64,000 nt of DNA from Beroe forskalii (taxonomy: Eukaryota > Ctenophora > Nuda > Beroida > Beroidae). Shown here one piece after another: positions 5,754 through 42,900 of the stretch. Under the pieces are notes generated by a model. It saw only the letters and a program-made list of their open reading frames with translations, was not told the origin of the DNA and ran no database searches. Within the stretch, counting starts at the first letter, position 1, and every line of letters begins with the position of its first letter. The DNA lies in contig WFMF01000191.1 in the NCBI GenBank assembly GCA_011033025.1, positions 266,683 to 330,682 of the forward strand. The letters run 5' to 3'. The position numbers and the translations under genes are program-made.

Positions 5754-5853
5754 NNNNNNNNNNNNNNNNNNNNNNNNNNNNNNNNNNNNNNNNNNNNNNN
5801 NNNNNNNNNNNNNNNNNNNNNNNNNNNNNNNNNNNNNNNNNNNNNNNNNNNNN
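5754..5853. other. Assembly gap of 100 N
   Basis: Exactly 100 N bases, the usual placeholder for a gap of unknown length. The sequence to its right (5,854-6,800) has runs of stretched homopolymers and looks like low-quality consensus. Confidence 0.99.
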
Positions 5854-12501: not shown

Positions 12502-14729
12502 CTGTGTTTTGTTGTCCCCATTGCTTCATACAAATGTTTCCTGGTGTCCTCCTGTCGTCAAAGAAGGGTGGCTCAGTCCAGGGATCATAGTTGGTCTCCA
12601 GTAAGTACCAGATTCCAGCTGTTTTGTTCAGCTCCCGGTAACAGTTTTATGATGATATGATGATCAGATTTACAATTACGGGGTAAGTTCTAGGTCCCAA
12701 TGATTCAAAACCTATCCTTTATTATTTTCTCTGAACAACAATAAAGCTTAACACCATATTTCAATAAAAATTCAATCTTACCCGGACATCCTCCACCTTG
12801 TCCAGAGACCTGGTGATGAGGACTCCCTCTCCTGTGCTGTTCCCTCCCAGCATGTAGTAGGCTGGAGCGAGCAACTTCTGTGTCATGAGCATCTCCTTGG
12901 CAGCACTGAAGCTATCTGCAGTCTCAGCTATGTCACGCATCAGAAACCCAGTCCATTTAGCACTCCTGGGGTGACAGTTTCTTTGAATACAGTTATAATA
13001 ATTCTTTTCAACTTCCCACAAAAAATTAAAAGTGGTAAATTGTATGATAACCTAAATAGAAAGCAGGCAGCCAGAGTTTTTCCAATTCTAGTACACAATT
13101 ATATAACATCTTCTCACCTGTCCCCCATAATCCATCTCCAGATTCCAATGAAACCACCCTCTTTATTGAAGCGTTCATTGATTGTCAAAGTAAATGCTGG
13201 TGGTTTTACTACAGTAAGAAGTCCTACATAGCCCAGGAAAGAAGCTGACTGGAATTGAGTTTAGGGTTAATTAAACAGCAGATGGTTACATCATTCATTA
13301 AAAGTGAGTCCAGAGAAAATATCACAATAAAATGCCATTATAGAAATAATTTAATTGGCAATGATATATTTTCAACAAGTTTGTACCTGATAAACACTTT
13401 GTCCATCCTTTTGATAGTCAACATTAAAGACAACCTTTCTGAGCCTCTCACTAAGAATCCAAGTATCATTCTTATCATCCCAACCAAGGAAAAGACCAAA
13501 GTCAAGGTTCCTAGCATGATAGAGTTTTCCATCTGGATCCTCAGCAACAATTGAAGTACAAACCTTAGGGGTAGGAAGGACAACAATTTCAGTTTATGAA
13601 AATGAAATTGGCAAAGAGCTAAGTAAAGCCACTGCCTCTCATGTGATCTCCTTTGTGTAGAACCAAATAAACCAATCATATGGTTAAATCTGATGTTCCT
13701 AAATATGGGGTTGGTCCATTTGGTATTGTATGCAATGGATATCATGTTAGAGGCAGTTGATTGACCAACCATTGTGCTAATTTCAACCACACAAAGTATA
13801 GACGAGTTCTTACAACCACTAGGTATTCATTCAAATTAATTGAATTCATAATTGATTACCATTAGAAATCCATCAATTACTATCAATTATTGAGGCTTAT
13901 GACGGATAAATCAAACTTTACTTACACTGAATAACTCATAGAACACATTGTACAATGTGACTTCACCTACAGGAATATCAAGAACTTCTGCAATTCCCTG
14001 AAACAAAAATTTCATGGTAGGTAATTATAACCCTGCATTTAAAAAGATATCTTTTGATTTTATTTCCACTGGATTGAAAATTTATTAACAATCTAGTAAA
14101 CTTTGGTTGGAAACATATATGTTTATCAACACTTCATATTAGATCTTGGAATAACAAATTTTTAAGTATACCTATTGAAAAAAATTGGAGACTATGATGG
14201 CTTAAATCAAGGAACAGTAATATTTTAGCCAAGATTCAGATTGTATTTCATTTCATCCCTAAATTGGTTGCCTACCTTTATTTCAGATCTGTAAGGATCT
14301 GGAAGGGTATCAAGAAGAAAGTCAAAGGCAACATCAAAGATCTTCAGTTCATACTTGTTGAAATAACCTGGAATGGGTGACTGATTACATGGATTAAAGT
14401 TGAAATATTGATGAATAAACATATCAATTTCATTTTATTTTTCAAACCTTATTCAATCATATTTGAATTCCAATCCAACCAACCTCTTCGTATGGTACAA
14501 CATAACTTGTACACTTACTGGTAACAGTGCTAATCAGTGTTACTACATCTTCTTTCACAGGTCCAATTGCATTTTTCCATCTTAATTCAGGAGGGTCATC
14601 AAGATTTACCACAACTGTAGACAATTTGGTATCTTCATCAGGAGGAAATTTATCTAGCCTACATTCCTCTACCACTTGCCCATCTGTTACAATTATGCTG
14701 ACCAAAACAAAGAGGGCAAGTAATATCAT
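12502..14729 (-). CDS. ASAH1: Acid ceramidase (ASAH1/NAAA family), seven exons, C-terminal exon missing
   Basis: The product hydrolyses ceramide to sphingosine and fatty acid in the lysosome. Exons, all minus: 14729-14480, 14367-14276, 13997-13926, 13563-13387, 13248-13118, 12965-12782, 12631-12502. Every junction is GT-AG and phases agree. The start gives a signal peptide (MILLALFVLVSIIV). Exon 4 begins V-CTSIVAEDPDGKLYHARN, with the autocatalytic nucleophile Cys about residue 140 (143 in the human enzyme). Later family motifs are INERFNKEGGFIGIW, LAPAYYMLGG, TNYDPW and FFDDRRTP. The ERF.. GG and PFF.DDRRTP patterns fit acid ceramidase better than NAAA. About 345 residues are seen; vertebrate enzymes have about 395. 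The last 45 or so residues must lie below 12,495 but I could not find them among the repeats. Confidence 0.85.
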
Positions 14730-16736
14730 CCCTCAGAAAAGAATAATTGTCAAGCAATATTAGAAACAACATGAGAGTATTACACTATAGTCAAACAAAA
14801 CACAAAGAATCATTAGAAAATATTAAAAATAATCATGGTATTTGATATCACACCTTGTACAAACAATAAATAGAAGCATTGGAATGTTTTGAACATAGAA
14901 GCATATTAACTCAAATGTTGTTGTCATTCCATGAATGAAAAACAAATCTAATAATCTCTTTCACATACTATACTACAGAATTGCAAAGTATACTGGAAAC
15001 GATTGCATCAACCTTTTGATATAGCACTGGAAAAACAGTAAATCAAGAGAAGTAGAAAAATGGCACTCACTTAAGCATATCCAAACAACCAGTCCGATTT
15101 AAACTCAAACTAATGCATAAGGAAGGACACCCACTTGCACTCATTCATTGAGTACTTATTAACATAGCTAAGAGCAAAAGCATTGAAATCTTCTAAAGAT
15201 TTTTAGCACAATAAAAATTGAGAAACTTTTTAATCTTCTGATCTTATATTCTTATGTTTTTATAAACCTTTTGTCAATATTAAACGCCTCGATATTGTTA
15301 TTTTATTGATTCAACCAGATACTAATTCCAAAACGGTAACGTTTTGAGTTCATCCTACCAGATGCCTACGCGCGCGCAGACCATGGCTAAATGGGCGGAA
15401 TTTATTTAAAGTTGATAAACCTAGACCTCTGCTCTCTGAACGACACACCTTTATATTAGCTGACGCAAGCCAAGACTGCGCGGCGCGTCAGCGGGCCAGA
15501 TATCGTCTGATAATGCGCGGCACTTCATCGACGGACGTTGCCCGTCTATTTCTTCTGACTGGATGGCTGGTGGTAATTGCAACGTGACGTTGCAAAGTAA
15601 GGTTGCAAAGTGACGTCCAAATGTGGAATTACGTTGCGCCGCGCGCGAGGGTAGGGTAACATCCTACGAGGCACTTCATTAATGAAGTGCCGCACATTGT
15701 CAAACGATATCTGGCCGTGGCCCGCGCCGCGCGATGATTTCCATCGAGGACTAAATAGCAATTGCTATTTGGCATTTGCTCCTTGATGGAAATCAGCGCG
15801 CGGCGCGGCGTTGAATTCTTACGAGAATCTGTCAAAGGCCGAAAAAAGAATCATCTGTCAACTTGTTTTCAATTCAATTCAATTCAATTTTAACTAATGC
15901 CTTTGAGTCGCCGCACCGCCTGAAAAAGTTCAATAGATCCCAATATTTTAGAACATAATTTGCATGCAGGCCATGCAGATGCCATAAATATTATTTATTT
16001 ATAACATATTTTTGGCAATTTCAAATTTTATTGTCGATACTTTATTTGTTGTGCAAGTACTGTGCAATTATTACACTAATCCATGCATGCATCAATGTCT
16101 CAAATGTTGTTATGTTGTTTTGATTTATGATAATATGCTAGTATTATTATTTGTTGGGGCCATTATGTTCAAAATGTATTGCCCAGTTGGTAAAATGCTC
16201 TTACTTCTCCTTTTTCTTCTTCTTTGTAGAACAAATACAGTCATCTTTGTAGCTTTTACTTCTCCATTAATTTATTTTCCGAAGTAATAAATCTGTCAAG
16301 ACCATATTCCTAATTCAAGGAATATTTTCAGGCTTGCTGTTTGACACCTTTAGATATATTTCATCTTTGGATATCTCATTTTACATTTATTTGTTTTAAT
16401 GAATGTTCAATTTGATAGAACATTTTGATTATTTCTTATTGAAGTTATAGTGGAGGGTAAGGCCCTGCTTATTGATCTTCAATTGTAATTCGATTGCAAC
16501 ATCAATTTCAGACATCTTATCCTAATTCTATGAGAGTATGAAAGTTTTCAGAAGATCAGCACCTTGGTCCCACAAATTACATTGATCAGAATTGATTTTC
16601 AGACTTGTTTTTCAAATTAAATGGACCTTGCTATCAACAAAATCAATATATACCTATTCAATTTTTGCTAACATTAAGCAGTACTATAGTCTTCCAAGAA
16701 TGATTTGATGCAAATGGCTTGGGAATAATATGCAAC
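14730..16736. promoter_or_regulatory. Divergent intergenic region with a palindromic GC island
   Basis: This lies between the ATG of the acid ceramidase gene and the ATG of the coiled-coil gene, which point away from each other. From 15,365 to 15,815 it is rich in GCGCG words. It holds two perfect palindromes, GCACTTCATTAATGAAGTGC (15671-15690) and AAATAGCAATTGCTATTT (15753-15770). The second lies at the centre of a larger inverted repeat (about 15,724-15,750 against 15,781-15,810, both with TGATTTCCATC). It may include promoters, but no core promoter motif can be proved. Confidence 0.4.
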
Positions 16737-19700
16737 ATGGCTGTACAAGTTCAAACTGCAATATCACCTATTGACTCAAGAATTGTAGACAATGCTTGCC
16801 AACACTTACGAACTGTTTGTAAGTTTTTGACTAGCACCTTTCTTGTTGAATGGTAGACTTTATAAATATAGATTTAGTAATTATATTATTTTAATCTTTT
16901 AACTTGATTTCTTGAGGAAGTTAGACTTTATATTCAAGACAATCACATTACCCATTTATCTGAACCTATTAAATTACCTGGTTAAAAAGGAGGTTTAAGT
17001 TACCTGATTTCAGCACAATATCTGAAAAGAGAAAGTGAGTGTACAGAGGCTGACTCAAAAGGTGTTCTTGTGGTTGTTGAAGCTCTCTTAGATTTAGTAA
17101 GTACCTAGACACATTGTGGTGCATACCTTTTTATAGTAATTTTAAGGATTGTTCACATAAAACATCAATTTTTGGCTGAACCTTACCCCCATCCCCCTCA
17201 TAATCAAGTCTACAGTTGTTGTATTTGTCGCAATAACATGTAACGTAATCATTTGGAAACCCCTTCCCATAGGTGATTACCTTATATATGAACAATCCCT
17301 TATATCTATAAATGCAAATGTGATATTTGTGCTTCACTTAGGTATCTGGTTTTAATGAGTCAGTGAAATAATTCACTTGCAATTAAGTAAGCTTTCAAAG
17401 GATCATTGGTGTAATATCCTTTGAATGACCTAAATTTTGCCTCCTTGGTCCTAAGTTACGCTTCCTATTTTCTACTTCACCTTCCTGCAAACCCCACACC
17501 ACGCCTTTCTCACGTTTTCACTATCATAACCTTGAGAATTAATCCAATCAGGATGCAGAAAGACAGAGACTACATGATGCCCTTGAGGCTGAAACCATCA
17601 AAGCAAGTGTCCTTAGACATTCTCTTTTGAATGTTCCAGTAGAAACAGAAAGGGAAATCGAATGTTAGTTTAAGCTTCAAGCTTTATTCTGTTCAGCCCT
17701 TGATTGTGTATTAATTTCTAATCAGGATGCAATATATAAGTACCCTTGCCCAATTGCCTATTATCTATGGCTTTTAAATTCTTTTCAGGTGCTGTGAGAG
17801 AAGTACGTGAAGCTAATATGGCTGAAATTGAAGATGTACAAGAGAAATTAAAACAAACCAAAGAAAGCATTGCAGTCTTGAAGGCAAAACTGGCTGAAAT
17901 AACTGCTCATGATAATGAGTTGGTGTAAGTATGGTCTAAATGTGATTTTCTTTCAAGTTATTCAAATACAGCCATAACATAATGAATCTAGATTTTCTTT
18001 CCCTCTGAATGCATATATGCACAGTTTTAACAGTATTCCACCCAGACCCGGATAAGAAACGACTGAAGGTGGACAAATTTATCCACCTCCATTTTCTCGG
18101 CTTCTGAGTGGTTTTGAACTAAACAAAAAATATCCTCTATTTCAGTGTTGGTCAATGGTTTAGTTGAGCTAAGTTTTGTCATCGAACTTTCAATAACTTT
18201 TAATTTCAATTAATTAAGCCGGTAATTAATATTTGCACGCAGGAGCGCTATATACGAGCTATATAACGGACTAATTGAGTTACGGCTTGCGCGGTAGATA
18301 TGTTGTGGCTACATGGCAAGTATAGTAATTCCTGGAATGCTTCTTTGCGGGGCCTAATTTCACTGCTGCCGGGTTGATATGATCATAACGATACACACCT
18401 TTTATTACGATATAATCAAATTGAATCTACACTTGAGTGTAACATCAATGTTGAACGAGATTCAAGATTTTCCGTTTCAAGCAGAAACTCTCCACAGTCC
18501 ACACTCTGTAGACTGTAGCAGAGTAGAAACCTAAAAGACGTTCAAAAATTAGAAAAAACAAAACAAAAAACTGTCTTTGTCTTATACTGTTATAGGTACT
18601 GATACCACTGTCGATGGCATAGTACTGTTGCATAATGACACTCCTCTATAATGTAACTGTCGTAGTGTCGTAGTACTGTCACATGATGAACTGTCGTCTG
18701 TCATATAACTGTTGTATAGTGACACCGCCTCATAAATATGTAACTGTCGTAGTACTGTTGCATGATGTACTGTCGTCTGTCATATAACTGCTGTATAATG
18801 ACACAGCCTCGCAAATATGTAACTGTCGCATAACTGTCGCATGATTTTCTGTCATAACTGTCGCATAACTGTTGCATAACTGTCGCATAATGACACTTCT
18901 CTATAATATAACTGTCGCAGTACTGTCGTATGATGTACTGCCGTCTGTCATATTACTGTCACATAATGACACTTCTCAATAATGTAACTGTCGTAGTACT
19001 GTCGCATGATGTTCTGCCGTCTGTCATATTATAACTGTTGCATAATGACACCGACTCGCAAATATGTATTACCTTAGTACTGTCGCAGCACTGTCGCATG
19101 ATGTAGGTACTGTCGTCTGTCATGTAACTGCTGTATAATGACACCGCCTCACCAATATGTAACTGTTGCAGTACTGTCGCATGATGTTCTGTCATAACTG
19201 TCGCATAATGACACTTCTCTATAATATAACTTTCGTAGTACTGTCGCATGATGTTCTGCCGTCTGTCATAGTACTGTCACACAATGACACTTCTCAATAA
19301 TGTAACTGTCGTAGTACTGTCGCATGATGTTCTGCCGTCTGTCATATTATAACTGTTGCATAATGACACTGCCGCAAATATGTAGTATTGTTGCAGTACT
19401 GTCGCATAACGCACTGTCATTACTGTCGTACACTCGTACCTATAACTGTCGCATAATGACGTTCATTAGAAAGTATGAGAAAAGAAAAACGCCTTTTGTA
19501 TACAGCCGTGATCTGAAATAAGGAAGTAACTGCAAATTTGTGTGAACATTTCAGGGATTTTGTTATCTGGAAGAAGGAAGTATCTTACGTAAGATACTTC
19601 CTTTTCCGATAAACCATGAAAAAGCGGCAATGATTTGGTGCAGTTGCTTCCTTTCCTGAACATAATATTATGGTGGGCTGTTGCGAATAAAAAGGAAGTA

Positions 19701-22700
19701 ACTGATCAGAATATTACTGTAAAGAAGTAAGTGTAGGTTTAGCCGAGAATATTTTCAAATCATTTGCAATTTATCCATTAATTGATTAATCCATCAATTA
19801 ATCCATGGGATATTTTTGGATAAACATGATGAAATTCATATGATATACTGAGCGATGAATGATCATAAATTCAGTCGGCTAATTTTTGTTTTTTACTTCT
19901 TTTACTGTAAAATTGTCAGTTACTTCCTTTATCCACAAGAGCCGGTCATAATATGTTCGGAAAGGAAGTAACTGCACCAAAAAAAAGTAACTGCACCAAA
20001 TCATTGCCGCATTATCATGGTTTATCTGGAAAAAGGAAGTCGGTAGGTATCTACGTAAGATACTTCCAGATTCCAGATATTAGATAACAAAATCGCAAAA
20101 TCCCTGAAATGTTCACCAAAATGGCAGTTATATTAGTAGTTACTTCCTTTAAAAATTTTCAGGACATTTCCCACGCAAATGACCTAGCCCATCTTGTAGA
20201 GCTCAACGAGCTGAAAATGTTGGTACTGAAACTTCAAAATTTGCAGTTCCTTTTTCCTTTACTTCCTTTTTCCAGATCACGGCAATATAGTTCTATAAAT
20301 TTGACGCGCAGATTTTTTCATTACCAGAAAAATCATCAAATAATTCGGTCATTGAACTGGTTTTTGGCTCATGATTGAATTGGCATTTAGGTATCTGGCA
20401 TAACCGAAATATAATATCCCATTTTCAATTGGCATCCTTTTCCCATACTTACATCTTTATATAGGTACCTACCTACTTACAGTATAAGCTCACTCCCCAC
20501 AGTGTGAAAAATTACGTTTATTTATCTCAATGTAGCAACTTCCTGTTGAAAAGCATTAGAGAATCTTCGAACTCCTCTTGTGTAACATGATGAAGTTGCA
20601 AAAAGCAGTTAAGCATCACACATCCTTACAACACTTTATACGTAAGTACTTAGGATAGGCGGTTGGCATGACGTCTGGTGTGAATCAAAAGCAGTAAATC
20701 AATGACGTTGACTGTACATGGGTATTATATGCAATGTGGTGTTCAAGTAAACGGTTGCAACTTTATCCTATCTAAACATCCAAGACCTTTGGGAGATCAG
20801 ACACTCATGATACTAATTATATACAAGGCGGTTTAACGTCATCAACTTGTGACTTCAGTTGTGAAAGTGACGAAAATTCAATTGTACAAAACTTGTGCAA
20901 TGTAATTTTCAATTCCGTGTATGCGTTGGACTTGCTCATCATAAATTGAGGCTAATCTATTTATATCACTGATTCAATGCTTCGCGCTCTTTGATCTTAC
21001 GGAACGTGATTGAAAGAATTGCTGAATACCGCAAGAATATGCAGTATTAATTATAATGTGCAATTAGGATATCACATATCAGACTTGTGGCTATGGATAA
21101 AAACGTCCACCTTCAGTTTTAAGCCCTTTTTTGCAGGTAGTTAATTTAAATTAGGCGTAATTAATTAACTATATGTGGCAGAAGTTTTAGTTTTGTTTCA
21201 ACGCACTCAAGAAAGATAGAACGGAGGATACTGAAAAGGCCATGCCACTGTTACTTATAATAGTCGAGTTATGAGCCGTCAAAGTTGAATTTGGATAAAC
21301 TAATCCACATATGGGCAAAATACTGTTAAAGTTTAGACTCTTTTGTTTTGATTTATTGATAGATTATTTTTCAGACCCCAGAAAGAAAAGATAAGTTTTA
21401 CCCATGAAGACATGGTTTCAGATCTCAACTTTCTACTCAATGACAAAGCCAAGTAAGTTATTGTGGCAGCTCAATTAGAAATCATTGATAGCAATTTACT
21501 CTGAAATAACCAGCTTTGTTGGATACAATAAGAGTTGCCTGAAATTTTTACCATGTGATTATCTGGTTTTACAGTTATGTCTATTTCAGGATTCAGATAG
21601 AACTCAATGATACTTGGGAAGAAGTGAAATGTACGAAGAAGAATGTGAGTAATCTGCATGATTCTGGTTAATGTTTAGGGAGCAAGTTGAAAACTTTTAA
21701 ATGACACGAGAAGTTTTAAATCAGAAGCCTCTCGAATAGCATGTGCTAATCGTCTTCTGGTTAATGGGTTTGGGTTCTTTGATATTTTGAAATTTTATGT
21801 ATTTTCATTCGTACATCTTGAAATCATTGACCCATTCTTCCCAGATTGGCAGAACTGAGGATGGAATTCTCCAACTCCACGAAGATCTGATCAATGAACG
21901 GGAGCAGGCTAAGGAGAACAGGAAGCAGCTCCGTGATGATATTCTGAACACCAAGCGACAGAAGGAGGAACAGTTAAATGCTAACGAGGTGGCAGTGAGG
22001 AAGATAGAGAGGTTAAAACACAACCTTACTGAGATCAAAGTTCAGAACCAGGACAAGAAAGCGGTTAGTTATTAATCTAGGAAGAGTGTGGTGAGAAGTT
22101 TAACACTGAGAGGTGGTTGGTTCTTAATTTGTATTTAACTGATTTTTTAAACTGGTAACATATAATCATCCGTTGATAGATTTCAATAAACAATTCGGAT
22201 TGAAGTTAACTAAGCTATACCTACTACTTTCTCAATTCTTATGTTATTTTATGTCGGATTTCATATAGGGAATTAGTGCAATCCGAAAAAATAAAGAACG
22301 TTTAGACGCAGCATTCTCGGTTATAGAAAAGAATTCAAAGGAGAGCTGCCAAATCCTAAAAGTGGAGGCAGACGATTGGTAAAATCCCTGTTCAGTGCTG
22401 GCGTGTTTTGAATAAAATAATAAGATATGGGAGACAGAGAGGGAGAGGCACGGGATGCAGATTGTAAAGTGTTATAAATATGCTGTAAAAATAATAAGTT
22501 TATTAAATACTTGATTAAAGTTCCCTGCAATCTATTTACGCCGAGGGTTTGGGCTAGCTGCTTTTGGTTGCTTTTACAGGTTCTTCTTTGTATGCTAGAT
22601 TGATAAATTTTACATAAAATACTCATGCCCTTGGTTGAAATGTCTCCCTCTCTGTCTCGCCCAGCTGATTTACAAACGACTGTTCGTTTGTGTGGGCGTG

Positions 22701-25700
22701 TGAAATTCCTGTAGTACACCTCACCGTGGCATAGTAACCAACCCTCGTGGCATGGTTGTTATGGTAACGGACCATAACACGTGTGGTGCATGATGAGCTG
22801 CTGTAACAGTGTAATATTTGTGTTTAATCAGCTGGGCATGTAATCAGGGTTTATTTAATGTATTTTGTTGTTGTAATTCGTGATTATTACGTGATTGTGT
22901 TGATTGATTGATACATTCTAACATTTTAGGCAACTGGTAAAATAGCAGGGCAAATCGCTGTCCTTGAAGAACAGTTGCGACAAGTGCAGTCCAAATTCGC
23001 AGCCAATGATGAAAATTACGATAGAATATTGAATCTCGGGTAAATAGACAAGCGCTATATCAGTTCTGCAGAAACTGCTGTCAGCAATCTCTTTTCTTTG
23101 CTTCTGCTGCCAAGCCACCTACGTTTCATACGTAGAACCGAATCTCTTCTGCTCCTTGGCTTCTTTGTCTCACTGAATTCTTTCTTGTGTTGAAAACTCA
23201 GTCCGCTTGAAGGCCAATCTTCTATCTTCCAAGTGAAGAAGTGCCTACTCTGACCTTGTAGAATTGCTAATACTCATCACCTACCTACTGCAGCACTCCT
23301 TCATATTCTCTGTACTAAAGCAGCTGTTTAGAGCTTTAGAGCCAAGGATGGATGAAAGTCCCATATTCTTAGCACCAGACTGTGGTCCTATTACTCTATT
23401 TTCTTCGCTGAGAAAAAGCAAACTTGTTGAGTATCATCGAATTTACATTAAAATGAATTTGGTATGTCTTTATTCTCGATTTATTCGATAAGTTATTCGC
23501 TTCTCTACGGCACTCAATGAAGAATCATATAAAAAGAGGAAGAATAAAAGCTTTTGTAAAGATCTTAGTGGTCTAATCATAGCACAAAGCTTTACTACCC
23601 ATATGTCAAACTCCGCTCGAACTCTCGAAGTCTTCTGGAAGCACGGCTGAATGTAGAATTCAGCTAAGACACTCGTTGGAGATATGGCATTACCGCCTAC
23701 AGCATACAGCATAGATCACAGCTTGGTAGTGATCTATATCAACCTACCTTAGTGAACTGTGATGTGTAACGTTACACAGTTTACACTATTGAAGCACTGT
23801 GTCGCATGTATTGTGTAAGTGCGACATCACCAATAAATACCCTGTAATTTATCATATGTTTCCAGTACATTCTCTCTCAATGTTTGTATCTGAAGCAGCG
23901 TGTGTTCGTGTGTTTCAGATCATAGAACAGTACAATATGAGTCGGACAGCATTAGATACAGCCTATCAAAAGATTACAGAAACCACTGGAGCTGACCTGA
24001 TGACCTTCAATAATATGACTCGTAGAGGGTAAATTTGAAAATATTCTATCTAACATGTTGCTATGATTGCCTTGATAGCATATGACACTGCTCAGGTCAA
24101 AGATTTAAAATTGGGTATTTAAGTCGAACTTCAAGCATACATAAGAATAGGTAGATTCACTGAAAATCAGGCATCATTTAATAGAAAAAAAATCGAGTTG
24201 AAACTTAGAAACTATAACTTGGTAGACGTACTTATTTGAGTAAACGTCACTTAATCGACGCTCGAGAGAATGAAGTGAAAAACCTACATTTTTCTAAAAT
24301 TATAAATTGTTGTTTTGATGCTATAAATAAAGGGCTGCATTACTACTGCATGGCATTAATGTACGAATATACTTACTAATTCATGTCAATATTACACACG
24401 CTGTGTTGTAGACAAGCAATCAGTGTTCAATTGCACAGTGTCTGTGTATGCATGTCTGTATAATCATTACGTAATGAGTGATTGTTTGATAATTCATATT
24501 GTGATATTAAATTGGCACAATTTAAATGTGTAATAGCGTCTATCTATTACACATTGACACAAGTTATATCCTCAACACAGTGTCAAATGATCTAGCAAAA
24601 GTCGGATAATCTGCTTGAAAATGACAAAGAACCAATAATAATGAATAGCATCCAGTAACCCAATACTCAATTCCCCAGTAAAGAAATCGGCAAAGGGTTT
24701 GCTGTCATGGTCAAGGAATATGATGAAAAACGGATTGATCAGGAGAAACAGCTTGAGAAGGTATAGATTTTCATAAGTTTACCAATTCTCATATTATTGT
24801 TTACTCTGCTTAGTACACAAACCCTGAAAACCCTCTCTGTTTGAAACGAGGTTGGTTGGTTGGTTGGGGGCTTTATAATAGCATGCATTGATCGTTTTCT
24901 ATAAACTCTCTGTTTTTGCCCAGGTACACAAGGAACTGGGAGAGGCTTCACAAAACGCTGCTAAACTGGAGAAGGAGAGGAATCAACTGCATAACAGTGA
25001 GTGAAATGGGAGTAATTAACAATTTGGAGAATTGTCTTTGAAAACATGTGCATATCCGGGCACAGATGATTTCCCAAGCCATGCTCATTTATAACTTGCT
25101 TATAACAAGCCGGGCAGAAACGTAACAGATGATTCATGTTGCATGAGGTAAACTATCTCCTCTGCAGCGCTGAAAGGAGCTAAGACTGCTGCTGGTCGTT
25201 CTGCTGCGTCTCTTCGTCTTCTCAACGAATCGTGAGTTTTCTTAACACTTTAACATCATATTCCACAGTTTTCTCTGTTGAACGATCAGAAAAAAGGTTC
25301 ATTTTAGAATATGGATCTGAGGAATAGAACTCAGTGAATCTGTGATGAAGGAATTTTGTATTCTCTCGAAATTTTAATGTTTAAACTTTTAGGAGTATAA
25401 TATCAGAACCTTCTGACCTTTCTTGCTGTATATTGTGGTAAGTTTATTGTTGGAACAGGAAAAGTCGGCGGATAAAATGTTCACAACCCTTGTTTTAATG
25501 AAAGATGATGATACCACTCCTATAGTCCCAACATCCCTGATTTTGTGTGTTTCATGCAAATATGAAATATCTTATCTTTCGTATTCATTGATTATTTCTA
25601 CCTGTTCCCAATCAAAAGTTCCACATAATCAGCTGCTTATACCTACACAGGTTTGATAAAATCCACACTCTACTATATTGATCGTGTAAAATATTAGCTT

Positions 25701-28700
25701 ATAGAGATAGTCCCTGCTGAACGAAAGGAGTTATCTTTATTCGAAATGTTATCAAATCTACCAGGTCGGGCTCCAAGCTGTCCCAAATAATGGCTGCAAA
25801 ACGCGCAGCTGCAGTTCCCGGTCCTCTGGGCCTAAGTTGCAGCGGATCATGACCCAAAAGCGGGCTGGTGTCATATCCTGGATTCAGTTCTACAAGCTTT
25901 ATTTAGTGTGTCAGGCGTCAGCTGCTGCAGCTGCAGCTGGGGAGGCTGGGTATGGGATGATAGAGAGTCATGGGAATGATAGAGTCAATTCATATTTTAT
26001 GGGAATGCATTAGAAGTGTAGTGAAGGAATGCAATAAGAATGATAGAGTAGCAGAGAGGTGATGAAAATAGCAATGTAGTAGGAATGCAATAGAGATGCA
26101 CTGTAGTTTGCTTTTAATTGATAGTTTACTCCAATGCGATGCGAAATGCAGCAAATGTTTCTAAAATCAGTACATCAGAAGCGGGTAGATTGTAGAGGCC
26201 AAAGGTCTTTAGATATCACAGCTTGATTGGGTAGATGTAGTTGCGGTAGAATAGAGTTAGCCTGATTTTCCTTCTGCATTTTATTTTTCAAGGATAGCAG
26301 GTTGAACGCGTTGAATGAAGATAAATGATTCCAATCACCACCATTGTGATGAACAGAAACAAGTTTGGCAATGAAAATTAGCTAGAATTTAGATAGTTAG
26401 ATCCGCATGGGGTAACACAGTACAGTAATGCATGATTTCAGAATTAATGTAAAAATATTTCTGCTCTTTGAATTCTCAAATCGTATGGTTTTCAAGTTTA
26501 TAAGATGGCACCTGGATATGCAATATCAATCTCGTCTTCGATTGATAATATGTTAATATCCCCACTAAAAACTTAAAAGATCCAGATTCCAGACCCCAGA
26601 TAACTCTCTAGTCTCTAGCAGATGAGTTTAAATGTTGCTGCAAAGTTATTTCCGACAGTCCAGGTTTGGTGCCTGGTGCCCCACCCACCCAGGACGGCCC
26701 TCCCAACACAGGGGAACAAGATGCTGCTGCACTAGCGGTGGCTGCATCACACCAACTACATGACATAGGGTACTGAACCTCTCATACAAAATAGCATGAG
26801 GTAGAAGTAGATGATCTGTCTTTTGAGAGAAAAATGCTAGAAAACATAACATGAAAATACAGTACAGAATGTTGCTATACGAAATTTGTAAAAGGATCTA
26901 AAAATGTCCGGGATCTCCAGCTGGATTCAACAAAACACCTTTACTCAACAGGGCAGACGACCCCGAGGCTGCAATAGCTGTCTTACGACAACTAGGGTAC
27001 ATTATCTCTATCATTGAAGTAGCATGGCATTAGAATATTATGATGTTACTGTTCTCACTACTTTCTTATCTATTCTGATAAGAAGGTAGAGAGAACTTTT
27101 TGACAGTCGCTAGGGTTCATGAGAATAAAAGTACAATGTAAGCCCCCTGCCAGATTAGAACAACGCCACACTAGGTATTGAATTCGCCACACTATAAAAA
27201 TGATCGCATTGTTAAGATGATATTCGCCACAGGCCACACCCTATGCGTTAACTTTCTAAGAATGCGTGTAAAGTGCAGGGTAATATTCGCCACACTAGCA
27301 TTATATTCGCCAAAGTGGTCGCATGTTTGTAAACACACGCAATGCTAAGCAATTATTCGCCTGTTTTATAAACAATCTTCGTAGACTCTATTTCGCCGTG
27401 TAAGGAAATTATTCGCCTACTGGGTAAATACATTCATTCTTAGAGAATAATTCGCCGTGTTTGGAAAGTATTCGCCTACTGGGTTACATATTTATTCTTA
27501 GAGAATATTTCGCCGTGTTCGGAAAATATTCGCGTTAGAAAATATTTCGCCGTGTTAATAAAATATTCGCCGTATGTTATGATAACATGTACACTCTAAA
27601 CTAATTAAGTTACACATAGCAGCCCCACCCTGACCTTGATTCACATCTGTACAAAATGTGTTCTAACTTGACTCCTGAAATTTTTCTATTTCATATTTTG
27701 AAATTTTGAACAGATGATGTGTTGATGTACACAAAGTTGCACTTAGCAATACATACCTACTGTGTATGTAAATTTAAGCATTCATATTTTTCAGATTAAA
27801 CATATCATAATGGCCCGTTTTTATACCATGAGAGCATCACATAGTAACATAGTACGACAGAGTGAGATTGGGGAACGGACATTTCATCTCGCGACACGTT
27901 ATATCACGACATTTTATCTCGCGACATTTCGTCTCTGACACTTCATCTCAAAGTACGACATTTCATCTCGTACTGTAACTTGATTGTATCCTGAAGTACG
28001 ACTTTGATCTCCAGGGTGCGAAGTTTCGTCTCAAGGGTACGACACTTCATGATCTTTTACTGTAACTTGATTGTACTGTAAAGTACGAAATTTGATCTCC
28101 CGAGTGCAAAGTTTCATCTCAAAGGGTGTACGGCACTCCATCTCTTACTGCAACTTGATTGTACTGTTAAGTGCATCATTTGACCTCGAAAGTACGACAT
28201 TTTATATCCAAGGCTACGACACTTCATCTCTGGGTATGGCACCTCTTATCAGGGAAGAACACTTGATATCAGGGTACGTCACTTTATCTCAGACTGCGAA
28301 ATTTCATCTCTGGGTACGACACTTCATCTCAAAGTACGACACTTCATCTCAGGGTAAAAAAATTATCTCAGACTGCGACACTTCATCTTAGGGTACGACA
28401 CTTCTTCTCTGGGTACGACACTTAAAATCTCAGACTACGATATTTTATCTCTGGATACGACACTTCATCGTAGACTTTAATTCGCTGTGTTAGGAAAATA
28501 TTCGCCTACTGGGTAACACATTTATTAATACAGAATATTTCGCCGTGTTAGAAAAATATTCGCCTATCGGGCAACACATTCATTCTTAAAGAAATTTTCG
28601 CCGTGTTTGGAAAATATTCGCTTGCTGGGTATCAAATTTCTTTTTGGAAAACATTTCGCCGTGTTAGATAAAATATTGTCGTATGTTATGATTACAATAT

Positions 28701-31700
28701 GTACACACATCAACATTCAACCCCACCCTCACCTTGATTCGCATCTGTAGTCTGTACAAAATGTGTTCTAACTTGACTCCTGAAATTCTCTTTCATATTT
28801 TGAACAGATGATGTATCAATGTACACGAAGTTGCACTTAGCAATCCAGAGCTACTGTGTATTATGTAAATTTAAGCATCTATTATACTTTTCGGATTAAA
28901 CACAACGTCATGTTATGTCATATTGGTTCGTTATAGCCTAACAGAGAGCCCGTTTTCATATGATCATAGGGGCATCACAGTACGACGGAGCGAAGTTTAG
29001 TAGTTTAGTCGTCGAGTCGAGTCGAGTCGAGTCGAGTCGAGTCGAGTCGAGTCGTCGAGTCGTCGAGTCGAAACGAGTCGAAACGAGTCGTCGAGTCGAG
29101 TCGAAACGAGTCGTCGAGTCGTCGAGTCGTCGAGTCGAGTCGTCGAGTCGTCGAGTCGTCGAGTCGAGTCGTCGAGTCGTCGAGTCGTCGAGTCGAGTCG
29201 TCGAGTCGAGTCGTCGAGTCGAGTCGTCGAGTCGAGTCGTCGAGTCGAGTCGTCGAGTCGAGTCGTCGAGTCGAGTCGTCGAGTCGAGTCGAGTCGTCGA
29301 GTCGAGGAGTCGAGTCGTCGAGTCGTCGAGTCGTCGAGTCGTCGAGTCGAGTCGAGTCGTCGAGTCGTCGAGTCGTCGAGTCGTCGAGTCGAGTCGAGTC
29401 GAGTCGAGTCGTCGAGTCGTCGAGTCGTCGAGTCGTCGAGTCGAGTCGTCGAGTCGAGTCGTCGAGTCGAGTCGTCGAGTCGAGTCGAGTCGTCGAGTCG
29501 AGTCGAGTCGTCGAGTCGAGTCGTCGAGTCGAGTCGTCGAGTCGAGTCGTCGAGTCGTCGAGTCGTCGAGTCGTCGAGTCGTCGAGTCGAGTCGAGTCGT
29601 CGAGTCGAGTCGTCGAGTCGAGTCGTCGAGTCGAGTCGTCGAGTCGAGTCGTCGAGTCGAGTCGAGTCGTCGAGTCGAGTCGTCGAGTCGAGTCGTCGAG
29701 TCGAGTCGTCGAGTCGAGTCGTTAAGTCGTCGAGTCGAGTCGAGTCGAGTCGTCGAGTTGAGTCGTCGAGTCGAGTCGTCGAGTCGAGTTGTCGAGTCGA
29801 GTCGAGTCGTCGAGTCGTCGAGTCGAGTCGAGTCGTCGAGTCGCCGAGTCGTCGAGTCGAGTAGAGTCGAGTCGTTGTGTCGTCGTGGCCTCGTGTCGTC
29901 GAGTCGTCGAGTCGAGTCAAGTCAAGTCGTCGAGTCGTCGAGTTGAGTCGAGTCGGGCTACTTTGATACTGACCTACTTGGATACTGCCATTACCGGTAA
30001 TCTTCACCGTGGACTTGTATTTGAAATTGAAGGATGCGAAACAATGGACCTGATGAAGCGGTGATAAGGATTGATAAAAGGGCAGGGGATTATGCTCGTC
30101 CTTGGACTTGAATTTTTGAATTTGAAATTGAAGGATGCGAAACAATGGACCTGATAAGCATTGTAAAAGGTTATTTTGGCTGCCGACACGGAACTGACAG
30201 GTGTGAGAGGATGGGTCCAAAAAAGCGGTAATAAGCGGTACTTGTAATTCTGGTAAATCACAGTATAATGCAGCAGAAAATGCCGGTTATTACTGGTATT
30301 CTCCCACTTTGCATTAGAACGGTCCGAAAAGATGATAAACGGTAATTTCATTCCCCAGTCCTAGATCGGGATGATGCGGCTTGTTACCAAGGAAAAACCG
30401 TCAAGTACTCGACTCTCCGTATAAGGCTATAACGAGCTGATATGATATTATGATGTGTTTAATCTGAAAAATATGAATGCTTAAATTTACATACACAGTA
30501 GGTATATATATTGCTAAGTGCAACTTTGTGTACATCAACACATCATCTGTTCAAAATTTCAAAATATGAATTAGAAAAATTTCAGGAGTCAAGTTAGAAC
30601 ACATTTTGTACAGATGTGAATCAAGGTCAGGGTGGGGCTGCTATGTGTAACTTAATTAGTTTAGAGTGTACATGTTATCATAACATACGGCGAATATTTT
30701 ATTAACACGGCGAAATATTTTCTAAGGCGAATATTTTCCGAACACGGCGAAATATTCTCTAAGAATAAATATGTAACCCAGTAGGCGAATACTTTCCAAA
30801 CACGGCGAATTATTCTCTAAGAATGAATGTGTTACCCAGTAGGCGAATAATTTCCTTACACGGCGAAATAGAGTCTACGAAGATTGTTTATAAACAGGCG
30901 AATAATTGCTTAGCATTGCGTGTGTTTACAAACATGCGACCACTTTGGCGAATATAATGCTAGTGTGGCGAATATTACCCTGCACTTTACACGCATTCTT
31001 AGAAAGTTAACGCATAGGGTGTGGCCTGTGGCGAATATCATCTTTACAATGCGATCATTTTTATAGTGTGGCGAATTCAATACCTAGTGTGGCGTTGTTC
31101 TAATCTGGCAGGGGGCTAATGTAGCGTCTTGCTATTTGATATAACTGCAATGCTCAAGTGCAACGAAATAATGAATTTTAGTGGATGTTTCAGTGATAAA
31201 TAAGTTTCTTGGTAGAAGCGTTTAGATATGATATGATTAGATTGAATAGATTTTTGCTGAATGCGATAGAATAGAATTTAAGTAAAACAAGGATATGTTT
31301 CTTGTTCTATGTCATGTCAGTCTTTCAGTGGTATCACATGGATCGAGTTGAATGCAGGTTTGTTTTGTCCGTAGAAGAGTAATAGATGGATTGCTTGAAA
31401 TGATGCAGTAGTGAATAGTGATACAGTAATACATTTAGTCCATAATGTAGAATTTTGGTAAACTTTCAAATAACAATAAGTTTTGCGATGGAAGCCAGCA
31501 AGAATTCAAATTTGCATGGAGTTAGACAGTACTGTAGATATGCTTGGATTCCTACCGCATGATCCTAGAAAGAGTAAGTCGAAAATGTTTATGCATTTAT
31601 AAGATTCATGATATTATATAAGGTGAAATATGCAGAATGGATGCCAAGTAGGTAAGTCATTTAAGATATTGAAAATATTTTCACCACACATGAATCAACA

Positions 31701-34700
31701 TTTACTGGCAAAGCTCAACGCAACATCCTTAGACATGTTTCTCATGAGCTGGAGAGTAGGTAATATTGACGATTCTCGATTTCAGTTATCGAGCGAGGTA
31801 TTCGTCATTCACCACCATATTCTAACTTCCCCCTCATCAGGTCACAAGACCCTGCGCTTGCTGCCTTGCAACAGCTAGAAGAACTAGGGTACATACTCCT
31901 TTGATTCTGATGGCATGCACCCAACTGCGATTTGTTAGAAAAGTAAAGTTGAAAAAGAGGAATGAGAATTGAGAGCCGACATGAATGTTAGCCACTTTAC
32001 AGAGTGTCTTGTTTTGATATTCACATTTGTTTTAGTAATGGAAGAATGAAAGATGCCTGATTCACCAGAGTAGTGGTTATGAGTAATGAAGTAACTCAGA
32101 GCATTTGATCGATGAAGATTAGCCATAATATACATTTCCATTTAAAACAGCTTCTTCTTTTATCCCCATGATTACGTCACAGGTTTAAGCATGAAATTTA
32201 AGCGCACCTATAATCGATAGTTGAGCAAAATATCCCATTAAGTCTAAAAATTGATATGCTTTGAAGTCAATTGAGCACCGCAGCCTACTCTTCATACTGA
32301 GAAGTCACCGATTGCTAAGAAGAAGCCCATTGACCAGAAGATTCGCCAGTAAGAGATTCGCAGCATGTCGTCCCTCACGTATCTGCAACATGTGTCCCAT
32401 GAGACTATAGCTAGTATATCTCCAAATATGTATGTCTTTGTCAGCTTACCTGAGACTGAGGAAGAAAAGAAAGACAGGCTGAAGGCAGAAAGGAAGTTAA
32501 GGAAGAAGGAGGAGAAGGAAAAGTATAAACATGCATGCAGCATAAATAGGCGAAAAAGCCTTGATATTTTTATTTCCCTTGTCCATCATTCCCGCGATTC
32601 CCGCGCGACATTAGATGTATTCTTTTTAAGTGTAGCGAGGTATGGAATGTAGTAGAAAAAAGCCACCAGGTTGATTCTGAAAGCAGTACTACACATTTTT
32701 CGTAGGAGAGAATGATATTTACTGGTCATAAACCGATCACAAAAGTCATGTTCCTCTGGAAGGATGACTGATCGATGTGATTTTTAGCTTTCTCTGACCA
32801 AATTCTATCACATAATTCCTGACGATACACCCGTCACCTATTTTCAAAACAGAATGTATGCACATTTTGGGACAGAGTACCAACCATCAAAACTGCATGT
32901 TTTGACCACACAAGCCCACATAAAACCGACAGTCTTCAAAAAAGCATGTTCACCAAGAAGGGTTTCATGATGCTCACTTCCCCTGTTGTCAGGTTGAAGA
33001 ACTCTAAGCAGGAGCTGCTGGACCAATCAGAAGAAGCAGCCAGGTTAAAACGAGATAACGCAGAGTTGGAGTTCAGGATACAGCAGGCCTCGGAGGGACA
33101 CAAACTTAACGTGGAACTGCTGTCTGGCCAGATAGATGAGGTATTGTAATTTGAACTTGAAGAGATTCAAAGACACGCATAAAAGTTTGGCGGGCAGCAA
33201 AAAGTGATGTTTGATATTAAAGCATGTTTCCTGTTTAAAACTTAATATTTTGGTTGTTTGATTGCTGAGACTTTAAAGTGTTTAAATTACGTTCACATCA
33301 TGCCCCCCACTTCCTGTTACACCAGGTCCGTGAGTCCCTTGCGTTTGAAGTAGAAAAGAAGAACATGTGTCAGAAAGAGCGTGAGAAGCTGAGGAAGGAG
33401 GAACTAGCGTGGAAGAAGCAGTATCAGGGTAACATCAGCGAGTTAACCTCCCGGATATCAACCCTCAAGTCAGAGAACACCCAGTTCGTGGGAGAGGTGA
33501 GGTGGGAGAGGTGGGGTGGGTGGGTGGGTGGGGTTTCATTGGGTAAACATGGGGTGGTGGGTGGGGTGGGGTGGGGTGAGAGGGTGGGTGGGTGGGGTGG
33601 GGTGGGGTGGGGTGGGTGGGGTGGGTGGGGATTGGTGGGATGGGAGAGGTGGGTGGGTGGGAGACACAGTACCAGGGTAACATCAGCAACCTCCCGGATA
33701 TCAACTCAAGTCAGAACACTCAGTTCGTGGGAGAGGTGAGAATGGGGTGGGAGGGTGGGTGAGGTGGGTGGGGGTGAGTGGGTGGTGTGGGAGGGGTGGG
33801 TGGGTGGGGTGGGGTGGGGGGTGTGGGGTGGGGAAAGTAGGTAACATCAAAGTTAACATCTCGGATATCAACCCTCAAGTCAGAGAACACCCAGTTCGTG
33901 GGAGAGGTGGGTGGGGCGTTGCTTATCCTAAACATCGGATGGTGGCTTGATGCAGTTAATTCCTATGGGATAACCCCAACATTTGAAGCAGACAATTGCC
34001 CGCTTGACTCTTGAGACTTTCCTAATCTTGTCATCGAGATAAGATCAGGAAAGTCTCACTCATGTCCCTGATGAGTCATCGTATCCCCGTGTTATCAGAT
34101 TCCCGTGTTATCTAATCCCACTATTATCCGACTTCCAGTACTCCAACAGTCCAACCTCCTATCTGTTATCAGATCACGAACCAGAAGAAAGACATGGAGG
34201 AGGGGGAAGTTTTAGTAAAACAACTCCGCAAGAAATCCAGGATGGATAAGGAGGAAAGCATGTACATCTGTGACGAGCTCCACAACGAGATCATGGAACT
34301 GGACGTGAGTTTTGTGAGGAAAATCGGGTGACTTGGATTAGTGAGTGTTTCATGTGGGAAATTGGGACATGGATGATTTTCCTGAAAATCCATCACTTCT
34401 TGAAGTGTGTTTCATCGCTTTCATACTTTGCCCTTTTTTTTCACAGTCCAATAGACTCTCTTGCAATGTTTTTCAACTGCGCTGATCATACCGATGTATC
34501 CTGTATAGTGTATACCTTCATAAATAAACGCCCTATTTCCCTTCAGACTCTGATTATCAACACGCAAGTGCAACTGGTGAAGTTCCAAGACACTATAGAC
34601 GAGATGAAGCCAGTATTCACTGATCTGGAGAAACAGTACGCGGATAAACAGCAATTCTATGATGAGGAGAAGAAAATAACAGTCGGTTAGTGGGTTGTGA

Positions 34701-38935: not shown

Positions 38936-39909
38936 CTAGTCGTCATCATCCTCTAGATCGAGGTTCTTGGAGATCGCCCACTCCACAAACTCATCAAACA
39001 ACACCACACCTCCTCCGTTCTTATCTATCTTCCTGAACTCAGCCTCCATGTCGTCGATAGGACCCACCCACGACATGATCTTACCTGGGGAACAACCGGT
39101 TAAATCTAGGAAACGACCGGTTAACTCAACTAAAACCGAAATACCGGTTAAGCGGGCGTTTTAAAATTTTAAATCTTACCCAGGAAACGACCAGTTAATC
39201 AAACCGAAATAACCTACCTAAGAAACGACCGGTTTATACCGAAATGCCGGCACTTCTGGTGTAACTGTAACCGGATTAAGAAATGCTTGCTTACCCTTGG
39301 CTTCCACGAACTCGACGAGCGAGATGCGCCTATCACCGTCAGCATCAGTCCTCATGAAGGCAGCCCAGTACTCAAAGTACTGTCGCAGGGAGAGCAGGAA
39401 GAACCGGAACTCCTTGGTGGAATGTGGGGTATTGTTCAGATTGTACCCATATCGGTTCACGTATTGTACGTAAAAGGGTTATTCAGAAGATTTAAGAGTC
39501 ATGCTCTGATTGTAAGAAATATATTAAATTCTGAGCAATTACTTTTATGAATAGCCAAATGAGCGAGAATTAAATAATTGCACGTAAGTAATTGCTCACA
39601 CAGTAACTCATCATATCGAATATAACCCTCCTTGAACTCGATGTAGTCATCGCCCACCCCATCACTCCTCTTAGACTTGGTCACGTTCTTAGCGATCTGA
39701 TAAGCCCTGATAATGGCTGGTTTAGCATCGAACACATCGTCCAGACACAACACATCCCGGATCCCTTTCTCTACCTCGGCCAGGGAGAGCACTCCGTTGC
39801 CGTTAGGGTCGAAGCCGCTGAAGAGCTCCTTGCGTTTGGCTTTCTGGGCGGGGTCCTCCCTGTCAGTTGGGAGTTTGGCAGTGATGGTGGGCCAGTCAAT
39901 GTCAGACAT
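38936..39909 (-). CDS. Calflagin-like EF-hand protein 1, with a non-canonical intron
   Basis: The product is a calcium-binding protein of the flagellar calcium-binding protein (calflagin) type, with an expected cytosolic or ciliary role. Parts: 39909 to about 39631, 39412-39295 and 39084-38936, together 546 nt (181 residues). EF-hand loops are DPNGNGVLSLAE (34-45), DADGDRRISLVE and DKNGGGVVLFDE; the second hand is degenerate. The end is DLEDDD. The second intron is GT-AG and its phase fits. The first interruption cannot be removed in frame with GT-AG borders (see findings). Neighbour gene 2 is a single-exon paralog with the same architecture. Calflagins have N-terminal acylation signals (MGxxxS); here the start is MSDIDW, so a myristoylation site is not seen. 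Confidence 0.75.
39085..39240 (-). repeat. Intronic repeat of ACCGGTTAA words
   Basis: Within the second intron of EF-hand gene 1, GGAAACGACCGGTTAA-like units repeat about four times. Palindromic ACCGGT occurs several times. Such sites fit the Grainyhead/TFCP2 consensus (AACCGGTT), but simple repeat expansion is enough to explain them. Confidence 0.6.
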
Positions 39910-39969
39910 GTTGAGCTCAAATGAGGGGAAATGGGTTAGTGTCAAGGGTGTTTTAGTTGACGTTAAATA

Positions 39970-42900
39970 ATCAGAGGTGAGAGGGCGAGAGGATTGTTAT
40001 CTCGCAAGCTGATTGGCCACCAATATCTGTAACCTACAGGTAAGCTAAGATGTGATGCAAGTCGAATATAACAATGCGAAACTTTCACTCGATAAAATGC
40101 TTTAAAAGAAGAATATTCATACACGTCACTCAAAGTCCAAGTGGTATGATACTGGAAACAGAAAATATTACATTGTCTGAGACATATTCTTTAAAGAGCA
40201 GATTAATAAGGACATTAATCACTGTAAATGATGTATTGCACTGAAATTACTCTATCATGACGCAACCTTAGAGACTAGAGCCTAGATTCTTGGCTGGGAT
40301 TAAAGATTTTAAAGAACATGAAAAGCCAGTGCATGCCTCGAGAAAAAAGGATTTCTCCATGAACAGCAGGTACAAATTCAGAACATGCAAAACGCACGTT
40401 TAATGCGTGGTCTCATTATGATGTTCAGAAGAGATTGTCATGATGCAATTAGACGTTTATCTGTCCGTCTTGGAGCCACCTTGACGATACTTTGCGAGAA
40501 ATTGTGACGGAAAATTGCAAGAAAATTAATATCTTGAGACAGTTTCACTTCTAATTAGATAGGGTATTTATACTAAAATAATGTCGTTAAATAAGAAATG
40601 AAACTCAAATTTTCGAACCTTTTCAAAATATGTAATCAGTAATAAGAAATAAGAATAATTAGAAACTCATTTAAAGTTGGGGATTAATAAAATGCCTCAT
40701 TTTAAATGAGAATATTCTCAATCAAAGAACGAATGCCGAAAGCCTCTTCTGAATGAATCACACAAATCTTTGCCGCCCAAAGCAAAGAAGCAAGGGGACC
40801 CTCTATATTCATCAAAGACACACGAAATGCAAAGAAATGTGAAGAGTAAAAGGATGGCACATACGAGAAGTGGTCTTTATATTGGCCGCTTCGCTCAAAA
40901 ACTAGACTATCTCAAGTGACGGAATTATCAGAGATTAGAATGGCATATTAACGACGATCACAACCGCCAGTAATCTTTCCCCCGCACTCCAGCTTTACAA
41001 TAAAGCTGGAGATTTAAGTGATAATCACTAGTAGGCTGCCACTATCCCAGTCCTGCCCTTATATGGTATAATTAGCAGCTCCCTCAGCAGCTCCCTCACC
41101 ACACCGGTGTTTAAACTGTTCTTCAGCTTTTAGCAGGGGTTGAAAGATGGAGTATAAAAAGGCAATGTGACGCCATCAATTCAACATCGCAAAACACAGC
41201 AATCTCGTCAATCTCATCAGACTATTGTCTGTGTCAACTCTATTTAGTGCGCGAGAGCTAGGGAACATAGTATATATGAGGGGGCATTAAGAACATATTG
41301 AGAATATTAGCTTATACGGACACGAGGGGGACTCAGAACAATTAGAAAGCTTAAATTGAGGCACCACTCGTTGTTCAAATGCAGCCAGATAATGAATGGT
41401 AGAGTTATTGAGGTCCTGAGGGGGCGTTATTATCATAGATTAAAGTGGAAAATTGAAGATGTAGATTAGTTTATTGTTCTCACACGTTCTTTAGCAATAA
41501 AACGTCCGTGTTTGAATGAATGAAAGAAGACTAGAGGGAGAAACTAAACTAAACTATACTATTCAGCAGCGATGAGCGGCCTCAGATCATATAGGACATA
41601 TCACAATGAATGTCATAATGACCTATAATGAATATCATAATGACCTATAATGAATATCATAATGACCTTGAGTATATGCTGGTAATAACCTCAATTCACG
41701 TTTATATTTGTAAAGATGCTAGGTAATAATGAAATGGTATTGTTATCGTTAATCGAGGGAATTAGACGGGTAGATTCCAATAATCATTACTGAACTTCGA
41801 TTCCGATTTCGTCCCCTGACTACGTGCCCTAACAGCCTGCATTTTGAAACTATTATGAGACTCCTGACACTATACTTAAATCACGTGATTGCTCGACCAT
41901 TAGGCCCTTAACCACGTTATTAGACCACGTCCTAATCACTAAGAGCGTTCCACGTGTGTTATGCCATATCACTTGGCAATTTCACGTGTTATGTCATGTG
42001 GCATTTTAATGTCTCCTGGCAATGGCACGTGTTATGTCACGTGGCATTGTAATGTCTCCCCGTGCCATAATGCCACCTGCTGGACATGGGAGTACCAATA
42101 TATATGGCACGAAGGTGGCATCATGCAGGGTTTGATGGGTTTGGGGGATGGTGGTTGAGAGTGACGTCATTATCAGGGTTTAGAATAGGTGAACTGATGA
42201 CGTTGAAATGTCTTAGGTTTAGGATGCAGCAAATTTGACAGTAATATGGTTTATTAATGAGTAATGACATAAAGAGGATGGACTATGGCAGTAATAAGTA
42301 GGATAATTCATGAAGTAATGATTGGTTATAAATGCCCAGGTACTCAAATAAAAGTTCAGATTTAAATGTTTATCATTTAAATTATTCACAACATTACGTA
42401 CAGGGTGTGGGGAATAGATGGCTGCATAAATGTAACCAGTAGAATGTTTTGCTGAGAGTTACCTTTGAGCAATTTGATTTAACATTAAACAATCTATAAG
42501 TATAAATAATTCAAAATAAAAATAAAAATAAATGGAGGATTTTGACAATCACCTCATGGGTCTAAAAATAAAGCAGCGGCGCACATACAAAGGTTTATTA
42601 ATATAAAAACGGCAAAGCCTCCTGTGGCTTTTATCTAATCTGACATTGCTTGGTGAGAAAGCTACACTCACAGACTCATGCACCACACACATCAACCACG
42701 CACAGATTACACCTTGTCCTTTACACAACATACACATTACACCTGTACACTAGTCACATATTACACTTTAACAGTTTACACTACTCAAACATTACACCTT
42801 TACACCTACACTCAAACTTTGATTGTAGGTTTAAAGGTGTAGTGAAGTCAAACATTACACCCATATTGATATTACTCATACTCGAACTCAAATCCTAGGC

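Follow-up and report, generated by a model that had tools for sequence, protein, structure and literature searches.

Three equal-length coiled-coil exons as a candidate mutually exclusive cluster in a probable CCDC175 orthologue of the ctenophore Beroe forskalii

A window of 64,000 nucleotides (nt) from the ctenophore Beroe forskalii (assembly GCA_011033025.1, contig WFMF01000191.1, positions 266,683 to 330,682) holds a long coiled-coil gene, probably the orthologue of CCDC175, in which three successive exons of identical length lie between two constitutive ones. Our analysis inclines slightly towards the reading that these three exons, here called E1, E2 and E3, form a three-way mutually exclusive cluster enforced by the reading frame. 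Coordinates are those of the window and, unless stated otherwise, of its plus strand.

Results

Three phase-matched exons and their frame

E1 (22269-22378), E2 (22930-23039) and E3 (23919-24028) are each 110 nt long, enter in phase 0, leave in phase 2 and are bordered by AG and GT, exactly as an earlier note on this DNA had described them. Their acceptors and donors score 5.6 and 3.5 bits (E1), 5.2 and 7.3 bits (E2) and 6.5 and 6.7 bits (E3), and introns of 551 and 879 nt separate them. Upstream lies a constitutive coiled-coil exon of 219 nt (21845-22063; 73 codons, phase 0 to 0, open frame; acceptor 8.6 and donor 5.8 bits), and downstream a constitutive exon (24679-24760) whose first base completes the codon. 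Both remaining frames of E1, E2 and E3 contain stops, leaving one open frame in each. By eye, a stop in the exon's own frame stands directly at every donor (xxG-TAA) and a TAG also precedes E1 and E2 at the acceptor, so that in-frame extension of these two exons is impossible. Within each open reading frame (ORF) the 110-nt form scores highest among those that preserve the frame; E1 also has a frame-breaking form of 52 nt with an equal splice score. No fourth 110-nt exon running from phase 0 to phase 2 was found in the cluster interval, even with relaxed splice sites; the relaxed scan gave two other candidates there (101 and 95 nt), neither coil-like in appearance.

Any one of the three exons, taken alone, joins 21845-22063 to 24679-24760 with an open frame. 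As had also been claimed for the pairs, E1+E2, E2+E3 and E1+E3 run into a stop at or just past the first junction; the triple combination does so too, and joining the upstream exon straight to the downstream one, skipping all three, is out of frame. Joint inclusion or skipping of the full 110-nt forms is non-functional by frame, and forms made with weaker splice sites escape this logic. In this regard, the earlier claim that the exons are usable only singly is correct for the full forms and fails for the weaker-site forms, among which in-frame combinations exist.

Continuity of the coil register

The three peptides share the heptad positions proposed for them (L12, an acidic residue at 13, I or V at 19). 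On three hydrophobicity scales, E1, E2 and E3 each have their best a/d phase in line with that of the final 37 residues of the exon upstream; when that exon is taken in full, one scale ranks another phase slightly higher (0.71 vs 0.66). When the fit to the upstream register is compared with shuffles of each exon, p is 0.007-0.010 for E1, 0.0008-0.0024 for E2 and 0.037-0.059 for E3, and the combined p for the three exons ranges from 5e-5 to 1.3e-4 across the scales. With a 37-residue insert, the opening 16 residues of the downstream exon fall in register (1.65/3.33/1.19 on the three scales); with a 74-residue insert they are off it (-0.56/-3.13/-1.35). Intermediate scores are obtained with inserts of 111, 76 or 55 residues (0.22/1.53/0.62) and of 68 residues (0.68/2.47/1.04).

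Chance expectation and splice-site letters

The expected frequency of such an arrangement was estimated on the two strands of the window minus 16001-36000, 88,000 bases in all, for exons of 60-200 nt with acceptors of at least 4.5 and donors of at least 3.0 bits, thresholds that were chosen with the three exons already known. Three equal-length, same-phase exons of a length not divisible by three occurred in none of 3000 random segments of 2615 nt, and at least two such exons occurred in 405 of the 3000.

The splice sites of the cluster were also compared with those of 17 constitutive exons of the same gene, drawn from 43 scan rows after leaving out the 3 cluster rows and 23 rows that were alternative, doubtful or outside the gene. 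A G at donor position +5 is found in 0/3 alternative against 13/17 constitutive exons (p 0.03), and a C at acceptor position -3 in 1/3 against 17/17 (p 0.016). Since the scan itself favours those letters, and since the total scores of the three exons (acceptors 5.2-6.5, donors 3.5-7.3 bits) lie within the constitutive range (3.6-10.9 and 0.7-9.0), we regard these differences as suggestive.

The host gene

The exon chain of the gene includes 17552-17663, 17789-17922, 21382-21452 and 21590-21644 before the cluster, two exons just after the downstream one (24924-24996 and 25168-25231), whose phases chain to 32993, and a later series from 32993-33140 to 35690-35841. The earlier and the later exons align with human CCDC175, for which we used throughout a sequence not taken from a database record. 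Exons before the cluster score 183 with a single 3-residue gap (shuffles 67.6, standard deviation 8.2), and the later exons score 178 (shuffles 96.5, standard deviation 11.3); in neither case did any of 200 shuffles reach the score. The upstream exon 21845-22063 by itself gives a weak match, equalled by 4/200 shuffles, and the alignment within it shifts between isoforms. These comparisons point to the gene probably being the CCDC175 orthologue. All Pfam matches of the gene lie below the curated cut-offs, and searches of the PDB returned either nothing or two matches at E 0.7, none of them meaningful. A 161-residue query for paralogues in the genome, which comprises 216 Mb in 1134 contigs, gave 4 matches (E up to 10), all within the same gene.

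Two further features lie within this gene. At 27141-31117, between its exons 25168-25231 and 32993-33140, sits a large inverted repeat with arms of up to 329 nt and 99-100% complementarity around a minisatellite (about 29007-29955), resembling a foldback mobile element. At 33470-33910, the last part of exon 33326-33515 (..RISTLKSENTQFVGEV) recurs downstream together with the first part of the following intron, with a tandem period of about 171, possibly a recent partial exon duplication.

Weighing exclusive against collinear use

Several results weigh against exclusive use, and the first group of them concerns the likeness of the three exons to one another. Their relative BLOSUM62 scores lie between -9.1 and 2.3% in six comparisons, while a predicted mutually exclusive pair of myosin Mhc2 exons in the same genome, taken as a control, gives 61-69%. 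Pairwise DNA identity (33, 33 and 32 of 110) is the same as in shuffles. The triple score of -24 is reached by 38% of triples drawn from the gene's 49 same-register windows, and by 9.9% of triples from all its 361 windows. The peptides do exceed full residue shuffles (0.4%), which shows the shared coil pattern alone. Common ancestry of E1, E2 and E3 was considered and is not detectable, their likeness being of the degree that coil segments in the same register commonly show within this gene. Judged by the WebScipio criteria for exclusive exons (PMC3228551), the exons have equal lengths (110/110/110 nt, where equal or near-equal lengths in steps of three are sought), the same phase, GT-AG borders and no in-frame stop. 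Their similarity, by our own scoring and not by WebScipio itself, falls short both of the default cut-off of 15% given there and of the cut-off of 10 for exclusive-exon prediction in PMC5740500.

The frame logic can also be evaded. In-frame combinations arise through weak donors inside E1 (22361, 1.7 bits) and E2 (22983, 1.8 bits), through an extension of E3 back to 23795 (acceptor 2.6 bits), through a 49-nt linker exon (23413-23461; 3.7 and 5.9 bits), and through a possible 7-nt micro-exon within E2 (22930-22936; acceptor 5.2, donor 5.5 bits) that would let E1 join E3 in frame. The shortened exons are referred to below as E1s (22269-22361, 93 nt) and E2s (22930-22983, 54 nt). We also note that the start of E2 (22928-22943) matches the donor region of E1 (22370-22385) over 16 nt at 81%, which gives E2 an internal donor seven bases in.

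These forms lead to the most serious alternative, in our opinion unlikely but deserving real weight, namely that the normal mRNA carries two or all three segments collinearly, with different borders, for instance as E1s+E2s+E3 or as E1 joined through 22930-22936 to E3, the equal lengths of 110 nt being a coincidence. Such chains are open, and our exon-chaining scan, which rewards each additional coil-like exon, chose E1s, E2s and E3 together in one chain. They need, however, donors as weak as 1.7 and 1.8 bits where the 110-nt forms offer 3.5 and 7.3 bits, and the coincidence of three exact, phase-matched 110-nt forms has no counterpart among the random segments described above.

Comparison with this human sequence speaks on both sides of the question. 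The single-exon chain, which omits two doubtful exons (32445-32639 and 33884-33906), has 678 residues against a human stretch of 681, the human ends being trimmed to the limits of the alignment. With gap costs of 11/1, E1s+E2 scores 357, the three exons in tandem 355 (frame ignored) and E1s+E2s+E3 351, against 339, 342 and 334 for the single exons; with costs of 14/2, the single exons score 278, 276 and 269 and the tandem forms at most 256, a lead of 13 or more. The three in tandem outscore 200/200 of their shuffles at both settings. E1s+E2s+E3 does so at 14/2, mostly via E3, and is reached by 6/200 at 11/1. None of the single exons stands out significantly from its own shuffles (94, 26 and 74/200 at 11/1; 26, 33 and 59/200 at 14/2), nor do the separate segments when aligned alone (E1 117, E2 17, E3 175 and the downstream piece 53 of 200). 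A pair hidden Markov model (HMM) summing over alignments was run in BLOSUM62, BLOSUM45 and BLOSUM80 versions. A single exon stands 7.5 to 13.6 bits above none with the first two; under BLOSUM62 the result is a near-tie, the best tandem form (E1s+E2s+E3) lying 1.7 bits above the best single, while under BLOSUM45 the singles lead by at least 5 bits. The BLOSUM80 version places E3 first, followed closely by E2+linker+E3 and E2s+E3, and E1 or E2 alone does no better than none. The earlier note had cautioned that the three segments look partly collinear with CCDC175: permissive gaps bear this out and strict gaps favour the single exons. As a guide to isoform choice, this human sequence offers mixed support.

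The coil register is divided as well. For the downstream part, another phase is preferred by two of the three scales over 27 residues and by all three over 51, which limits its support to the junction. An insert of 86 residues, as in the collinear alternative, scores the same as one of 37 for the downstream register. The head of E2, on the other hand, drops out of register once shifted by 31 residues, from 1.78 to 0.59 on one scale and likewise on the two others. Because the tandem beats its shuffles at both gap settings, the chaining scan selected a tandem chain and the downstream register speaks for the junction only, we have raised our estimate of collinear use and lowered that of exclusive use.

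A less probable explanation, and one we rather doubt, is that the gene uses just one or two of these exons, the rest being decaying exons or decoys. The donor of E1 is indeed the weakest of the three and no similarity between the exons is detectable, yet all three have kept an open frame, a splice site at either end and the heptad register. Far less probable still is an assembly error, with single-base errors in E1 and E2 masking exons that are truly in frame together. E1 does contain a run of six A and the sequence comes from a single assembly, but two independent errors would be needed, both of which would have to leave a length of exactly 110 nt and a frame open up to the donor, while the neighbouring exons chain in phase unaltered and the sole N run of the window lies at 5754-5853. 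That chance produced at least one of the three, as a sequence that is no real exon, is hardly credible, for even though at least two equal-length, same-phase candidates turned up in 405 of the 3000 random segments, three together never did, and all three fit the upstream register.

How exclusion might be achieved

If the cluster is exclusive, as we favour, one of three 37-residue segments would be spliced between the two constitutive exons. Each segment would continue the upstream heptad register, so that the length and register of the coil would be kept while its surface and core would change; the core residues that differ among E1, E2 and E3 include F16/L16/Y16 and S23/F23/T23. All three exons would presumably be used, the choice may fall by competition between them under splicing factors, and double inclusion or skipping would yield a frameshifted mRNA to be removed by nonsense-mediated decay.

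Other modes of exclusion find little in the sequence to sustain them. Steric exclusion goes with a distance from donor to branch point of <50 bp (PMC5740500); judged by their length, the introns of the cluster are too long for it. Nor is there a mixture of U2 and U12 sites, the cluster donors (GTTAGT, GTAAAA, GTAAAT and GTAAAT) all being U2-like by eye. Base-pairing between introns, which had been suggested as something that could enforce the choice, does not survive strict scoring, a further point against exclusive use. With full wobble, 1, 14, 2 and 53 of 73 shuffles were as good in the four layouts (best z -2.7); a previous run on two layouts had given 18 and 1 of 25. With wobble down-weighted the counts were 170, 48, 161 and 173 of 400, or 33, 326, 35 and 395 of 400 when judged by the weakest of the three pairings. 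For single intron-to-intron pairings, 241, 194, 288, 99, 53 and 24 of 300 shuffles were as good. Docking-selector pairing was not taken as evidence, the best layout going from 1/73 to 170/400 once wobble was down-weighted. In the absence of U12-like donors, short introns and robust pairing, competition between exons together with removal of frameshifted transcripts is what remains. The proposal of an exclusive cluster that swaps a 37-residue coil is consequently upheld in length, phase, frame and register, and let down by exon similarity and intron pairing.

In the first intron of the cluster, arms at 22419-22446 and 22643-22670 are 82% complementary and could form a hairpin. The possibility that this intron is a mobile element was set aside, as a search of the genome with 22400-22860, in which very common words were skipped, matched only itself.

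Other genes in the window

On the minus strand, 13372-14732 holds two pieces with family matches to choloylglycine-hydrolase (E 7.4e-5) and to NAAA-beta (E 5.2e-6), read as a gene of acid-ceramidase or NAAA-like type. The same strand carries, at 39499-39996 and 45598-46239, two EF-hand genes or pieces of genes that resemble flagellar calcium-binding protein (FCaBP_EF-hand, E 1.9e-22 and 9.4e-21).

Discussion

Our findings allow us to propose, tentatively, a broader view of this locus as a three-way ctenophore cluster whose members share exact length, phase and heptad register and no detectable sequence, and which might consist of very old duplicates or of independently recruited exons fixed by the geometry of the coil. 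If this were so, searches for exclusive exons based on similarity would miss such clusters, and surveys that require similarity would undercount them. Confirmation by RNA would add a three-exon exclusive cluster for a ctenophore, in a gene on which we met little in the literature, and would indicate that exclusive exons can be recognised by coil register and frame when their sequences are too dissimilar to reveal them. In the open-licence literature we found nothing joining CCDC175 with mutually exclusive exons, and among the matches listed for tropomyosin or coiled coils, cilia or sperm, and ctenophore exon duplication there was nothing useful.

Several known systems offer points of comparison. 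Tropomyosin carries mutually exclusive exons in a coiled coil and swaps a coil segment, as would be the case here. In Dscam-type clusters, the choice is made through docking and selector RNA pairing; one exon is chosen from a tandem array, a feature that the present cluster would share, while it differs in giving no pairing signal under strict scoring. The swap of a coil segment also resembles that in the protostome myosin rod cluster (PMC3912159).

Within ctenophores, exclusive exons have been predicted for the myosin Mhc2 of Mnemiopsis (PMC3912159). In the present genome, we found the corresponding pair among 78 myosin-head matches, as adjacent matches over profile positions 105-167 and 104-173 (contig C225:1040300-1043300). 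By our reading, the two exons measure 196 nt and 226 nt (1 mod 3 in either case) and lie 58 nt apart, the 3' exon being ten codons longer. The mitochondrial DNA of this genome likewise has a ctenophore look: a 13.3-kb contig with COX1, which reads with TGA as Trp, seems very rich in Phe, and its initial 10 kb gave no tRNA gene with ARAGORN under bacterial settings, traits known from ctenophore mitochondria. With a gap of 58 nt, exclusion in this pair could be steric. The two cases are alike in having alternative exons of matching phase in a ctenophore host, by our reading of the Mhc2 exons. They differ in the number of exons (three here, two in Mhc2), in the high similarity within the Mhc2 pair, in the possibility of steric exclusion, which applies to Mhc2 and not here, and in the part of the protein concerned, a motor domain in Mhc2 and a coiled coil in our gene.

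As regards human genes, PMC5740500 counts 377/629 exclusive clusters (60%) with lengths not divisible by three and 73 annotated exclusive exons without sequence homology. In view of these cases, dissimilar and frame-breaking exclusive exons are unusual yet not unheard of. The same source considers it improbable that exons so dissimilar code for one and the same structural element (PMC5740500); unlike them, the three exons of B. forskalii all fit one heptad register.

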